Shown here piece after piece: positions 46,887 through 53,435 of a stretch of 64,000 nt of DNA. This DNA is from Candidatus Nitrososphaera evergladensis SR1 (GTDB lineage Archaea; Thermoproteota; Nitrososphaeria; Nitrososphaerales; Nitrososphaeraceae): NCBI RefSeq assembly GCF_000730285.1, contig NZ_CP007174.1, positions 2,728,001 through 2,792,000 of the forward strand. The letters are read 5' to 3'. Position 1 is the first letter of the stretch, and every line of letters begins with the position of its first letter. The notes beneath the pieces are model-generated. The model did not search any database and had not been told where the DNA came from. It was given only the letters and a program-made list of their open reading frames with translations. A program made the position numbers and the translations under genes.

Positions 46887-46995
46887 GCCCGGGTAGTATA
46901 GAGAAGCCCGGCTATTAGCAGCTGGCCTCGTACAGTCCGGTCCAGTATGGGGGACTGTCACTCCTCCGACCCGGGTTCGAATCCCGGCCCGGGCG
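46887..46995 (+). tRNA. tRNA-Asp (GTC) with an intron in the D-loop
   Basis: The acceptor stem pairs GCCCGGG (46887-46893) with CCCGGGC (46988-46994), discriminator G46995. The anticodon arm is GGGGA-CUGUCAC-UCCUC with anticodon GTC, the variable loop CGAC, and the T-arm CCGGG-TTCGAAT-CCCGG. The D-stem pairs GTAT with GTAT across an overlong D-loop. Removing about 35 nt (roughly 46902-46936) leaves the canonical loop A-G-CC-GG-TCC-A. The extra piece has its own pairing (GAG/CTC, GCC/GGC), so it is read as an intron; exact borders and a full bulge-helix-bulge could not be fixed by eye. A recombinase gene starts 10 nt downstream. Confidence 0.88.
46902..46936 (+). other. Putative D-loop intron of tRNA-Asp
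   Basis: The insert AGAAGCCCGGCTATTAGCA and following bases separate A14-G15 from the CCGG of the D-loop. Possible pairing GUAU/GUAC, GAG/CUC and GCC/GGC would fold it and bring the ends together. Boundaries may be off by a few bases because CCGG occurs twice. Confidence 0.55.
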
Positions 46996-47005
46996 CTTCA
47001 CTCCT

Positions 47006-48394
47006 ATGTTGACGCCCGGTTTAAAAAAGCCAAGAGAAGCATACGAAAGTCAGACATTTTTAGAAAAAGCTGACGAAACTCGGACATCTGGCCGTTTTAA
47101 GGCCACGCGCAGGTCCGGTGGCGTGATAGACAGTGACGCCATCTACAACTACACTGGCAAGTTAAAGGCTATACAGCGGCAGTTCAAGGGAAAGGAGGCG
47201 AAGTTGGTCTCCGATTTCCTGAACGCACTCTCCGACCATGGGTTGAGCAAGGGCAGGATAACGTACTATGCCTGCAGGCTCCCCAAGATAATGAAGTGGT
47301 TCAGAAAGCGTCGCATAGCCCTAAAGGATGCAACGAAGGAAGATTGCAAGCAGTGCCTGAGAGATGTGAACAGCTCTGGCGACTATGGAGGAGAGACCAA
47401 GTCCGCGTACGCAAAGACCCTGAAGCGGCTGATACACTTTGCCAAGACGTCTGAGATAGGCGAGAAGAAGGAGGGCCAAGACTATGTGCAGGAAGTTGCT
47501 TGGATAAGACCTACTGCCTACCTGAAGCAGGGAGAAAAGCAAGAGATCAAGCCCTCAGACATTCTGACCTATCAGGAACTTGAGATGCTGGTCGAAGCGG
47601 TGAACAAGATCAGCCGGTATCCTGTAAGAGACAGCGCCATGGTCATCTGCATGTACGAAGGAGCGTTTAGGTCCGGCGAACTGCTCAGGATGGCAATTGG
47701 AGGGGTTCTTTTCAAGGACAAGGTGGCGGTGATATCGACAACTGGAAAGACAGGAAGCAAGACGGTGCCTCTGCTTCTCTCCTACAAACCTCTGCTAGAA
47801 TGGCTACAGCAACACCCGGAGAAGGATAACCCTGATGCGGCCGTCTGGATGGGAATGACAAGGAGAAAAGTATTGCATTACCAGTACCTCCGGAACCTGG
47901 TCAAAGATGCAGCCAGACAAGCTGGAATCAAGAAGAAGGTTTGGAACTACCTCCTTCGGCACACGAGGCTGACAGACGTGGCAAGGAAGCACCCTGACCA
48001 GATACTGAAAAAGTACGAGAACTGGAAGGGTAACACTAGGATGGTGGAAGTGTACATCCACCTTTCAGAATCAGACCTTGAGGACGCGGTGTTAAGAGAG
48101 CACGGACTGCAGCAAGAAGAGAAGGAAGAAAAGTTAACACTGAAAAAGTGCCCAAGGTGTGGAGAGGGAAACACCATAGGTGTAAAAAGATGCGTTAAAT
48201 GCGGTTTTATTATCGATGAGCAGCTGGCGATGAAAACAGTGCAGGAAGAACAGGATGTGTTTGGCAGCTTGAGCAAGCGGATAGAGCGGCAGGAAGAGGT
48301 TCAAGATAAGATACTCGAAGTGCTCGGTTCCATTGCAAGAGATGTCGAAGGGATGAAGGCGGCAGAGGAGGACGATATAACCACTAGCACTTAG
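47006..48394 (+). CDS. Tyrosine recombinase with C-terminal zinc ribbon
   Basis: A 462-residue site-specific integrase. The SAM-like N-terminal domain (~45-150) precedes the catalytic domain with Arg222 (FRSGELL), Lys248 (STTGKTGSK), His319-x-Arg321 (LLRHTRL), Trp340 and Tyr350 (VEVYIHLS). A zinc ribbon (C382, C385, C396, C399) and a coiled-coil tail (SKRIERQEEVQDKILEVLG) follow. Its start is 10 nt beyond tRNA-Asp, so the tRNA 3' end is the probable attachment site and the sequence downstream an integrated element. All catalytic residues are present, so it may be active. Confidence 0.92.
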   Translation: MLTPGLKKPREAYESQTFLEKADETRTSGRFKATRRSGGVIDSDAIYNYTGKLKAIQRQFKGKEAKLVSDFLNALSDHGLSKGRITYYACRLPKIMKWFRKRRIALKDATKEDCKQCLRDVNSSGDYGGETKSAYAKTLKRLIHFAKTSEIGEKKEGQDYVQEVAWIRPTAYLKQGEKQEIKPSDILTYQELEMLVEAVNKISRYPVRDSAMVICMYEGAFRSGELLRMAIGGVLFKDKVAVISTTGKTGSKTVPLLLSYKPLLEWLQQHPEKDNPDAAVWMGMTRRKVLHYQYLRNLVKDAARQAGIKKKVWNYLLRHTRLTDVARKHPDQILKKYENWKGNTRMVEVYIHLSESDLEDAVLREHGLQQEEKEEKLTLKKCPRCGEGNTIGVKRCVKCGFIIDEQLAMKTVQEEQDVFGSLSKRIERQEEVQDKILEVLGSIARDVEGMKAAEEDDITTST

Positions 48395-49461: not shown

Positions 49462-50004
49462 CTACACGGTTTGGAGAAACGATGTAACTTGCGCGACTAA
49501 TTTATCCACGGGCGTACTTCCATCTACTTTCAGATCCGCCAACTCAACAAGTTGAAAACCTACTTGACTTTCCGTGGAGTGCGAGTCGACTGCAGTCAAT
49601 CCAACTCTTCCAACACCGTCACGTCTTTCGATCCTCTCCAGACGCTCAGCTTCTGGTAAAGTAATAAAAATAAGAGCTACCCTTGCAGGATAGACAATAT
49701 CCTTAATCGCATTCAACGCCTCAAGATGCCGAACACCGTCAACAATTAATGGTTCTGATGGATCCCAATTTCCGAAATCTAAGACTGCTTTACAAAATGG
49801 TTTCCACCCGAGCTCAACTATCAGAGCCTCTCCAAGTTGTTGTAATGTTTCTCTCGAGTGATCAAGGTTGCGATCGGATGCCACACTTCTGACATAGTCA
49901 CCAAAGCTTATTCGACGCCATTTCATTTTCTCAGAGATCTCTTTCGATAGTGTCGATTTTCCGCTTCCTATCCTCCCGGCGAAAGCTAAAATCAAGGGCT
50001 TCAA
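49462..50004 (-). CDS. P-loop nucleotide kinase-like protein
   Basis: A 180-residue P-loop protein. Walker A is GRIGSGKST (residues 10-18); SFGDYVRSVASDRNL and VDGVRHLEALNAIKDI match the NMP-binding region of dephospho-CoA/deoxynucleoside monophosphate kinase-like proteins, and LPEAERLERIERRDG the lid. Last gene of the modification-type operon, overlapping the ASCH gene by 4 nt. A role in phosphorylating a modified nucleotide is inferred from context. It is not a standard adenylate kinase. Confidence 0.75.
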   Translation of the reverse strand: MKPLILAFAGRIGSGKSTLSKEISEKMKWRRISFGDYVRSVASDRNLDHSRETLQQLGEALIVELGWKPFCKAVLDFGNWDPSEPLIVDGVRHLEALNAIKDIVYPARVALIFITLPEAERLERIERRDGVGRVGLTAVDSHSTESQVGFQLVELADLKVDGSTPVDKLVAQVTSFLQTV

Positions 50005-50591
50005 ATGTCAAGCACCAAAGGATTATTTTTTTGCCTATTGTATAGGATTACCCAGCCTCTGCGATCTTTCTTTTCAATAAAAAGAGGTCCGAGAGTTGCT
50101 ACCTTATCTATCCTCATTAGCGTGGCGAAAGAGGCATGTTTCCTGTCCGACCAAAAACTCGGATCCTGCACACATAAATAGTTAGTAAATTCCCTCTTGA
50201 TATCAAGCCATGAACGAGGATCTAAACGATAGTACCAAACTTCGGTAACCTCACAAATGCCCATAATAGGGCCACCAGAACGCTTTAATAATATCACGTC
50301 ACCATTCGCCACCTTCTGGTACGGAGCGACGCGATGTGAGGAAAATCTAGACTCAACAGTCTTCTTTCCTTCAAGGATGAATTGAAGGTAGGGTTCAACA
50401 AGGACGGCTAGATGAAGTGAGAAAGGGAGATCGGATCGCTTTTTCAGTAGTGGCGTCAAGTACTGCCCCCAATAGTTATCTTCACTTACTGACGTGGAGA
50501 GAAATCTAACTAATTCTGTGTGAATATCGGCAGACCAAGAAGGACTAATCAAAACGTTCAAACTCCATTCTCTCATTCGATTCCTTATCAA
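50001..50591 (-). CDS. ASCH-domain protein
   Basis: A 196-residue protein with an ASCH domain (about 61-125): LAVLVEPYLQFILEGKKTVESRF then GDVILLKRSGGPIMGICEVTEVW. The Lys/Glu/Arg pattern GKKTVESR (75-82) is the family's ligand-binding signature. ASCH domains bind RNA or act on acetylated/modified nucleosides. An N-terminal ~60-residue extension is specific here. The start overlaps the methyltransferase-like gene by 47 nt; a shorter start is at 50576. Strict overlap with both neighbours indicates co-translation. Confidence 0.72.
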   Translation of the reverse strand: MIRNRMREWSLNVLISPSWSADIHTELVRFLSTSVSEDNYWGQYLTPLLKKRSDLPFSLHLAVLVEPYLQFILEGKKTVESRFSSHRVAPYQKVANGDVILLKRSGGPIMGICEVTEVWYYRLDPRSWLDIKREFTNYLCVQDPSFWSDRKHASFATLMRIDKVATLGPLFIEKKDRRGWVILYNRQKNNPLVLDI

Positions 50592-51780
50592 CTATATCAA
50601 TAATTTGAGCAACTGTCAGGAGAATCTTTTTTCTTTGGTCTGATTTCAGACGGCGATTTATTCTTGACTCGACTTCACATACTGGTGAATGACCACAAGC
50701 AAGCGCTTCAAGAATAGTTATCAATATGTTGCGACCCTTACATGCAAAAATCCTATTACCAGAAGTCCAGACATCTGCCAAATCTCTTCTTGAATCCCTA
50801 CGGCTAACAGAGTCCAGGATATCGGATGGAACAATTGAAATTAGACTAGGATCTAGATAGCTGTTTGATTTGTCATTTCTAATCAATATTCTAACTCCCT
50901 TTACGTTAATTTCTCTCCAGGGTTCCTTAGCGGAAGAGCGGGGTCTTGAGACATCGCGCATCTTTGTTTTTGAAAATATTGCTAGATCTCCTTTTCTCCA
51001 GTCAGATGGTATAGCATTGATACCTTGTATCCGAAGAGCGTTTCTTTCAAAGAATGGGCTCTGATATTTCAATTCGCCAGATAGAAAATCAAGCAAAGTT
51101 AGTCCAAGTTTTCTTGCCCATTGGAAAACCGACTTGATCTCTTGATGTATTCCCGGTCTTGCTCCCACAGGAGGCAATACGATAAGTACATGTCCGTCAA
51201 TTTCACAAATCTGAGTAGCTGCCCAAAGAAAGGACTTGATTTCCTCCAAGTACCAAGGTGGATCCGCAAATACAAGTTTGGCGGAAACTTTTGGTAGTTT
51301 TTCCCGAATTAAGTCGCAACGATAGAACGATTTGCCGGTCTTAGAAGAAGCAATTGTTGGATTTCTATCCACTAAAATGAACTTCCTATCAGGTAGCTGA
51401 CTAGATTCATGAAACAAACTAGGCGCACCTAGTAAGCATATCATATCTCCTTTCTTACTGTAGATTTTGCAATGATGCATAGCACATTTAATCCCACGCT
51501 CAGAAAATCTCCAGTCGAAATCGAGTGGATGTGGGATAGGGAGGATTTGTCCCCTCTGGGATTTCCGTGCTTTTCCGCCAACATATGCAAGTACTTCAGT
51601 AGCAAGAGTGCTCTTGACTTTATTGTTCTGGACTAGTCGTTGGATTGATTCTAAGACCGTGACAGGATAAATTCCAGGGAGTATTGCGAGAAGAGAATCG
51701 AACCGTCTAATCCCTGAAGAAGTTGCTTCTAAGACCCATTCGTCAATCAGCTTAACGAATGCTGAAGATTCTCGGATCAA
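50545..51780 (-). CDS. DPPW-type methyltransferase-like protein
   Basis: A 411-residue protein. The N-terminal 70 residues look like a helical/winged-helix domain. A Rossmann core follows: GDMICLLGAPSLF (111-123, degenerate SAM loop), ILVDRN (135-140, acidic end of strand 2) and VFADPPWYLEE (170-180), the catalytic motif of N6-adenine and related N-methyltransferases. The middle WYLEEIKSFLW and PVGARPG support this fold. The C-terminal half (about 230-411) is unassigned. A polyamine-synthase type of the same fold is an alternative because motif I is weak. Coupled to the ASCH gene; 12 nt gap to the radical SAM gene. Confidence 0.68.
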   Translation of the reverse strand: MIRESSAFVKLIDEWVLEATSSGIRRFDSLLAILPGIYPVTVLESIQRLVQNNKVKSTLATEVLAYVGGKARKSQRGQILPIPHPLDFDWRFSERGIKCAMHHCKIYSKKGDMICLLGAPSLFHESSQLPDRKFILVDRNPTIASSKTGKSFYRCDLIREKLPKVSAKLVFADPPWYLEEIKSFLWAATQICEIDGHVLIVLPPVGARPGIHQEIKSVFQWARKLGLTLLDFLSGELKYQSPFFERNALRIQGINAIPSDWRKGDLAIFSKTKMRDVSRPRSSAKEPWREINVKGVRILIRNDKSNSYLDPSLISIVPSDILDSVSRRDSRRDLADVWTSGNRIFACKGRNILITILEALACGHSPVCEVESRINRRLKSDQRKKILLTVAQIIDIVDKESNERMEFERFD

Positions 51781-51792
51781 TCGATATTCAAC

Positions 51793-52809
51793 CTAGCCCA
51801 AGATTACTTGAGTTATGGGTCGTGCAAGTTCATTGTCAGAATATCTACGTCTAAGTTCATTATTCCATTCTTGGATAGCCACCTCTTGATTTGTTAATGC
51901 ACGACTAATAGCGTCATTATTGGATGTTGTTATTCTGGATTTTACAGGGCTGAAAATTGCAATTTCAAGTGGAATCGTTCTTAGTGGCAAGTTAGTGTGG
52001 ACTTGTTGGAGCTTGTCTACAAAATTCCGGACTTTTAGTGAAATGCGATCCGTATCTGCGGGAGATGTTAGTGTCACATATGCATATGTGTCAATACCCA
52101 ACTCAATGAACTTGCGAATAAGTTCGAATTGAAAATCAAAGAGATCAGGATCTGCCAGAGTGTTAAATGAAAATGACTCCCTATCAAATCCCTTGAAGCA
52201 ACATACCCTGCCGTAATTCTTGTATCCACGCACCAGTTCTAATTGCTCGCCGCTAAGATACCTCCAAAAGTAATCATTACTAAGGTTATCGTCAGACCAT
52301 AAGTAGACGGAATCTTGCAGTCCTCTTGCAATGAGCTCTTCCATCATCCAAGGTGTCCATTCTGGAATAAGGTCTGGCTGTCCTCCACTTAGATCTATAA
52401 CGCTCGGCCTATCATTTTCATTTAAGTATAAATTCACAAGGTCAGATGCTGAGACCCATCTTGACCGTTCAACATCCGCTGAGAGTAAGTTGAACGGCAC
52501 GAAACAATACCAACATCTCCAATTACACGCCCCATTCTGAAATACTTGTGCACGCATCACGTCCTGCATGGGAAGATTTAGAGCCTTGCAGGCGGGTGCA
52601 ATTGGAAGAGGATTGCTTGGCCATCCTGTAGAAGTCTCAATTTTGAAATGACGGATCCTACCTAAACCACCGCAGTTTGGGGCCTCACTTAGATCCACTT
52701 CTTGTTCTGAACCCAATAAATTGCTTACAAGCAACCGCTTGTTAGAAAGATCCACCGATTTGGATCGAAGATATTTGGACCATTCCTCAGTATTGATTGT
52801 CTTGGTCAC
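51793..52809 (-). CDS. Radical SAM enzyme
   Basis: A 338-residue radical SAM protein. The [4Fe-4S] motif is C95-x3-C99-x2-C102 in GACNWRCWYCFVPF; GGQPDL (about 143-148) is the SAM-binding GGE-like segment. The N-terminal ~90 residues and the closing region are not typical of a named subfamily, and no auxiliary cluster is seen. Such enzymes perform difficult C-C, C-S or methylation chemistry. Between a DUF4186-like and a methyltransferase-like gene, it suggests a modified nucleobase or nucleotide product, but this is inference. Starts with ATGA overlap after the DUF4186-like gene. Confidence 0.82.
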   Translation of the reverse strand: MTKTINTEEWSKYLRSKSVDLSNKRLLVSNLLGSEQEVDLSEAPNCGGLGRIRHFKIETSTGWPSNPLPIAPACKALNLPMQDVMRAQVFQNGACNWRCWYCFVPFNLLSADVERSRWVSASDLVNLYLNENDRPSVIDLSGGQPDLIPEWTPWMMEELIARGLQDSVYLWSDDNLSNDYFWRYLSGEQLELVRGYKNYGRVCCFKGFDRESFSFNTLADPDLFDFQFELIRKFIELGIDTYAYVTLTSPADTDRISLKVRNFVDKLQQVHTNLPLRTIPLEIAIFSPVKSRITTSNNDAISRALTNQEVAIQEWNNELRRRYSDNELARPITQVILG

Positions 52810-53435
52810 TTTTTGTCCTTCTCTTTTGCATTGATGTCATCACTGGCTTCAACAGCTAGAGCGGGCAGTTTCTTTTCGACATAATACATCATTAAGCCAA
52901 CAAGATACTGTATTTCCTCGTCAGAAAGAGGATGATTCCTATTAATCCCATGCCAAGCCTCAATACATTTTCTACAACAAGTAGCAGTTGCATGTTGGGA
53001 ATAGTAGATTATGTTTCCTTCGAGAGGAGTCTGTCTACCATCCCAGGGGTTTTCATTGGAGCATTTGTTTACATACTTTCGTAGCCGATTTTCAGCCTCC
53101 TGTCGAAGCATGCCTAAACCTTTTTTCTTCGCAGATTCAACAATTTTTCGTTCAATGTCACGCTCCCAATAACCGAGCCGGAAAGCTTCCATCCTAAGCA
53201 TGCTTGTGGTATAGTCTGCGTCGTCGATATTGTGTGAATCCAATCGATCCCAATCAATTAGTTGTTTGCCGCAATCTACACAAGTTTGACTTCGGTATGA
53301 AATTGCGTCATCAAGTTTTTTCCCACGGAAGTCATGGATGAAAGAATGCAACCCGCGTTTACAATCCGAACTTGTGCATGTTAGTCTTCCTAATGGCTTA
53401 GTATTTTGCCAATCAGGAACCTCTTCCTTATGCAT
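52806..53435 (-). CDS. DUF4186-like protein with N-terminal zinc site
   Basis: A 209-residue protein. The C-terminal ~100 residues match DUF4186: GMLRQEAENRLRK, DGRQTPLEGNIIYYSQHAT, then ATCCRKCIEAWHGI, and LSDEEIQYLVGLMMYYVEKK. The N-terminal half adds CysCys pairs (C20/C25, C52/C55) that can hold zinc. DUF4186 itself has no known chemistry. It overlaps the XRE-ImmA gene by 8 nt and the radical SAM gene by 4 nt. The match is from memory of family sequences. Confidence 0.7.
   Translation of the reverse strand: MHKEEVPDWQNTKPLGRLTCTSSDCKRGLHSFIHDFRGKKLDDAISYRSQTCVDCGKQLIDWDRLDSHNIDDADYTTSMLRMEAFRLGYWERDIERKIVESAKKKGLGMLRQEAENRLRKYVNKCSNENPWDGRQTPLEGNIIYYSQHATATCCRKCIEAWHGINRNHPLSDEEIQYLVGLMMYYVEKKLPALAVEASDDINAKEKDKK

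Follow-up and report, generated by a model that had tools for sequence, protein, structure and literature searches.

The window analysed here is a stretch of 64,000 nucleotides covering positions 2728001-2792000 of the single-contig genome of Candidatus Nitrososphaera evergladensis SR1 (G000; 2,954,373 bases). It holds a tRNA-Asp(GUC) gene with additional sequence in its D-loop and, beginning 11 nt past the end of that gene, a gene for a tyrosine recombinase. The features discussed below are as follows, in window coordinates, with a slash marking each predicted cut.

46887-46995, + strand: tRNA-Asp(GUC) gene with a D-loop intron, 109 nt (custom tRNA-Asp covariance model, ARAGORN, Rfam)
46887-46901, + strand: exon 1, tRNA nt 1-15, GCCCGGGTAGTATAG
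46896-46899, + strand: exon strand of the central helix H, nt 10-13, GUAU
46900-46902, + strand: 5′ bulge AG/A, cut predicted after 46901 from the geometry
46902-46935, + strand: intron, 34 nt, at position 15/16
46903-46929, + strand: inner helix h′ and its loop, with arms 46903-46908 and 46924-46929 (5 of 6 positions paired)
46930-46933, + strand: intron strand of helix H, GUAC, pairing with GUAU at 46896-46899
46934-46936, + strand: 3′ bulge AG/U, cut predicted after 46935
46936-46995, + strand: exon 2, tRNA nt 16-73
46985-47001, + strand: attL core CGGCCCGGGCGCTTCAC, 17 bp (genome positions 2774985-2775001)
47006-48394, + strand: tyrosine recombinase (integrase), 462 aa, PF00589 match at 6.5e-16

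The custom covariance model, whose inputs included the mature G000 sequence, matches the full span at 2.7e-13. Joining the exons yields a canonical 75-nt tRNA, and the same sequence occurs in six other genomes (G015, G014, G011, G017, G008 and G021). An earlier note, made from the letters of this DNA alone, had described the tRNA as canonical apart from a D-loop about 35 nt too long; both statements are borne out, as removal of the 34-nt insert leaves a standard tRNA.

A relaxed bulge-helix-bulge at the intron borders

In the proposed precursor fold, the D-stem nucleotides 10-13 (GUAU), whose partners in the mature tRNA are nt 22-25, would instead be engaged by the GUAC that lies at the intron's 3′ end. 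This would create a central helix of four pairs, flanked on either side by a 3-nt bulge and extended by the intron-internal helix h′. The cut sites listed above follow the rule that the bulge-helix-bulge (BHB) literature gives for cleavage within the bulges.

Pairing was counted in 47 introns, i.e. 44 from the family and three from other families; five family loci added later stand outside this count, and the order-level rows G028, G031 and G036 were excluded because the parser did not fit them. All 47 introns share one anatomy, which reads GUAU (nt 10-13), bulge A-G-/-N, h′, [GA]UA[CAU] and bulge A-N-/-[UC], with both bulges always 3 nt long. Within helix H, the pairs U11-A and A12-U are invariant, the partner of U13 is G in 39 introns and A in eight, and the nucleotide opposite G10 is C in 14, U in five and A in 28. 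Helix H accordingly comprises four standard pairs in 19 of the 47 introns, including that of G000, and three standard pairs in the other 28, where nt 10 forms a G-A pair.

The pairs of h′ vary from intron to intron while pairing itself is kept: among 40 distinct introns, 212 of 236 cells are paired. When the arms were swapped among introns, pairing fell to a mean of 61% (maximum 70% in 1000 trials), and sliding the arms by 1-2 positions left 28-37%, although both controls overstate the evidence somewhat since the 40 introns were merely de-duplicated and related sequences were treated as independent. No outer helix h lies beside H. With h absent and h′ present and covarying, the structure corresponds to the relaxed form that the BHB literature terms HBh′. 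A search for a bulge-helix-bulge at both borders, the check proposed in the earlier note, thus found one in relaxed form, with a 3-nt bulge at each predicted cut site.

In the minimum-energy structure computed for the G000 precursor, nt 10-13 are base-paired to the intron. With the other helices fixed, the BHB state has −33.7 kcal/mol, 4.4 kcal/mol better than the −29.3 kcal/mol of the alternative in which the D-arm is kept and h′ is formed. The overall stability of the precursor is modest relative to shuffled sequences (z −1.9; 11 of 200 shuffles equally stable). Considering the G000 gene by itself, the junction could shift by up to 2 nt because the intron and exon 1 share an AG end; only if G15 is taken to be retained do relatives whose intron ends in AA or AU place it at 15/16. 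A CCGG motif duplicated at both ends, to which the earlier note had drawn attention, is not a general property of these introns: CCGG lies within the insert in three of the 44 parsed family genomes (G000, G015 and G014), and the duplication was rejected as a functional motif.

Conservation within and beyond the family

A search of 70 family genomes found tRNA-Asp in 49, and in all 49 the insert sits at the identical point. Its length ranges from 23 to 42 nt, with 44 loci parsed by script (24-42 nt) and five read from the loci (shortest 23 nt). We take the intron to be an inherited trait of the family.

In the other 21 genomes, no usable tRNA-Asp was found by BLAST, by an anticodon-arm pattern or by a 5′-exon pattern, the last giving a single match with one mismatch in G003; a covariance-model search of 13 of the 21 likewise returned nothing usable. 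The intron is therefore unseen there. Most likely, the gene is absent from these assemblies rather than split or further disrupted, forms of the gene for which the searches gave nothing usable. In the draft genomes G005, G075 and G076, contigs end 7-75 bases past tRNA-Asp; such ends, and the absence of the gene from 21 assemblies, may reflect broken assembly at a hotspot of integration.

Outside the family, D-loop inserts of 18-31 nt occur in G025, G132, G135, G151, G201, G030 and G037, and G028 has an insert with an odd 3′ end. In G035, the ends of the insert do not match this helix H, a result that counts against one uniform intron type beyond the family. Among the order- and class-level loci read, the insert is absent from G038, G029, G036, G180, G026, G096, G100 and G027, as it is from all 11 tRNA-Asp genes read in family f9 (probably Nitrosopumilaceae). 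Two of these genomes, G029 and G038, which belong to other families, have an intact GTATAG-TCCGG junction. Across all families, the inserts differ freely in sequence and in length (18-42 nt), and the exons hardly change.

Further insertions were seen in the same tRNA. An insert in the T-loop, near 59/60, accompanies the D-loop intron in G005, G006, G020 and G002 and occurs without it in G027 and G026 (T-loop loci L084, L015, L016, L017, L023 and L113). It was weighed as a possible guard against integration, for which six genomes offer too few cases. Three other members of the class (G091, G094 and G086; loci L178, L180 and L179) seem, by eye, to carry tRNA-Asp introns in the anticodon arm. tRNA-Asp may thus be a repeated target of introns.

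A paralogous intron in tRNA-Glu(UUC)

The tRNA-Glu(UUC) gene of G000 carries an insert of about 44 nt, also at position 15/16. The same holds for all nine family genomes whose locus was fetched (G000, G011, G015, G020, G022, G013 and G012, together with G016 and G005, which were read by eye), and in G029, which belongs to a different family, both tRNA-Glu-like loci lack an insert. Exon nucleotide 12 is G in tRNA-Glu(UUC) and its intron partner is C, whereas tRNA-Asp has A and U. The A-U pair of one tRNA and the G-C pair of the other thus amount to a compensating change, seen here between introns of paralogous genes.

The 3′ part of tRNA-Glu(UUC), 46 bp long (L239, from G000:C1:2079979 on), recurs as an exact copy 11.1 kb downstream (L236, G000:C1:2091170-2091215). 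The two copies probably mark the ends (attL and attR) of another integrated element, this one in the second tRNA gene interrupted at 15/16. More tRNA genes of G000 appear, by eye, to be disrupted, namely L231 near nt 8/9 and L232 in the D-arm, and L234 seems to have two inserts.

Splicing endonuclease genes and a proposed route to the mature tRNA

Two genes in the genome belong to PF01974 (EndA). The 187-aa protein, whose best match among solved archaeal splicing endonucleases is 3p1z_B (3.8e-44), retains a GIDHAP motif, at whose His the 3ajv chain has Ala; the 250-aa protein has no His at this position. The pair fits a catalytic and a structural subunit of a putative α2β2-type enzyme. Such an endonuclease has been assigned to Thaumarchaeota (PMC4090602), and this architecture has been tied to the recognition of relaxed motifs (PMC4033280).

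A heteromeric splicing endonuclease would then cut both bulges, at AG/A and AG/U, an RNA ligase would join the exons, and the freed D-stem could form. Taken together, the covarying bulge-helix-bulge, the intronless orthologues with a clean junction and the splicing endonuclease genes support the D-loop intron first proposed in the earlier note, and the tRNA-Asp intron is very likely spliced.

The integrase and a 155.9-kb insertion

The integrase reported beside the tRNA in the earlier note is real, as its PF00589 match attests. Synteny with G015, in which the integrase is not beside the tRNA, ends at window position 46998, and the sequence that follows the tRNA in G015 resumes in G000 from 2930929. 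At that junction, the 17-bp core CGGCCCGGGCGCTTCAC recurs unchanged, as attR, at G000:C1:2930876-2930892. The break in synteny and this second copy indicate a 155.9-kb insertion at the 3′ end of the tRNA gene, and the locus shows what is expected of a mobile element: an empty site in a relative (G015), direct repeats at both ends and an integrase at one of them.

One of ten large element ORFs scanned contains TraG P-loop and HerA-like ATPase domains. Large ORFs of the insertion also include an asparagine synthase, TrkH, an aminotransferase and a 1665-aa protein with Ig-like domains. Near the integrase, at 49462-53435 on the − strand, are genes for an AAA-domain (kinase-like) protein, an ASCH protein and a DUF4186 protein, plus two separate proteins with sub-threshold matches to a methyltransferase and a radical-SAM protein, respectively.

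A tblastn survey of the regions flanking the tRNA covered 50 parsed genomes, with downstream lengths of 7 to 6000 bases. Other recombinases were found near tRNA-Asp upstream in G082 and G084, and the G011 flank gave one weak match of 36 residues (E 0.002).

Alternative explanations

Given this neighbourhood, the insert could be a scar or cargo of the integrase or its element, for instance an intron carried on attP, as in the model of Sugahara et al. 2012 (attP-borne introns: PMC3293823, PMC8371274). In keeping with such an origin, tRNA-Asp and tRNA-Glu(UUC) both possess D-loop introns and both are apparent integration targets. Yet the att core begins at tRNA nt 63, placing the intron 49 nt upstream on the host side of the crossover. 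In G015, moreover, the intron is present, matching at 33 of 34 nt, and no element occupies this site; the flank survey places the G000 integrase beside tRNA-Asp in G000 only, i.e. in one of 44 family genomes, some of them covered over short flanks; G077 has a different recombinase, 0.6 kb downstream. For the 155.9-kb element, this origin is already contradicted, and in general form we consider it very improbable. Because the intron exists in G015 without the element and the integrase is found only here, the integrase did not make the intron. The suggestion of the earlier note that an integrase shaped the architecture of this tRNA was consequently rejected.

Retention of the insert in the mature tRNA, as an unspliced and enlarged D-arm, would be compatible with the hairpin that the insert forms on its own. 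It is difficult to reconcile with an insert free to vary in length and sequence between nearly fixed exons and with orthologues that do without it; conserved 3-nt bulges and covarying helices suit splicing rather than a D-arm, and in the precursor fold the intron occupies the very nucleotides, 10-13, that the D-stem requires. We regard retention as no likelier than the origin from the element. Less probable still, to the point of being almost negligible, is a decayed or permuted tRNA-Asp with a working copy elsewhere. Standard tools do recognise the gene in part only: ARAGORN misplaces it at 46921-46994, with the 5′ half wrong, and Rfam RF00005 covers 46930-46987 alone (model positions 10-63). 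However, the exons yield a perfect tRNA, and BLAST and a 3′-end pattern detected no second tRNA-Asp in the 2.95-Mb single-contig genome. We are thus highly confident that the insert is an archaeal tRNA BHB intron at position 15/16, which is spliced and inherited in the family, and that the integrase arrived later with the 155.9-kb element, which recombined at the 3′ end of the gene.

Relation to known systems

D-loop introns are less common than those of the anticodon loop, as the earlier note had stressed; they have, however, already been described in archaea. In Methanopyrus kandleri, two tRNA-Glu genes contain a D-loop intron predicted to be a splicing endonuclease target; intron-bearing precursor reads were seen, and removal from the D-loop appears to take place later than that of the canonical intron (PMC3695527). 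Both cases concern the tRNA of an acidic amino acid. In the methanogen, the gene contains a second intron as well (PMC3695527), whereas tRNA-Asp of G000 has a single intron that is found family-wide. For Thaumarchaeota, the older name of the same phylum, 107 non-canonical tRNA introns have been counted and a clade-specific BHB model was built (tRNAscan-SE 2.0, PMC8450103), the available passages of which give counts and no individual intron.

A parallel to an intron near a recombinase gene is tRNA-Thr(GGU) of Caldiarchaeum, where the authors argue that non-canonical introns beside such a gene were gained with a mobile element (PMC3293823); in tRNA-Asp, by contrast, the element is later than, and separate from, the intron. 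Among integrated elements of Thaumarchaeota, 10 of 39 tRNA insertions lie in intron-containing tRNA genes and the median att length is 17 bp (PMC6563490). These elements include NitEve-E6 of Nitrososphaera evergladensis (Krupovic et al. 2019, PMC6563490), which the 155.9-kb insertion resembles by description alone, both being large elements in a tRNA gene.

The available excerpts of the literature on Nitrososphaera tRNA introns and archaeal D-loop introns do not describe the G000 tRNA-Asp intron, which may well be listed in a tRNA database. While D-loop introns of archaeal tRNAs are known as such, the tRNA-Asp case is a new and conserved example with unusually strong comparative support.

Implications

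In practical terms, ARAGORN gets the 5′ half of this gene wrong and Rfam detects no more than a part of it. In the family genomes where the genes were found and read, neither has been seen without its intron (tRNA-Asp in 49 of 49, tRNA-Glu(UUC) in nine of nine). As the intron seizes one strand of the D-stem, it could hold these acidic tRNAs in a state unfit for charging until splicing has occurred. That selection keeps both 15/16 introns throughout the family, be it for such a hold before charging, for D-arm modification or for tRNA supply, is a speculative idea that we consider rather unlikely.

With dozens of orthologues, covariation and intronless relatives, tRNA-Asp provides a clean comparative case of a long-held D-loop intron, in which intron and integrase can be told apart at a tRNA that serves as an integration target. 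Integration here used the 3′ end of the tRNA while the D-loop intron was present, which makes the locus relevant to the proposal that integration gives rise to tRNA introns or that such introns protect against it.
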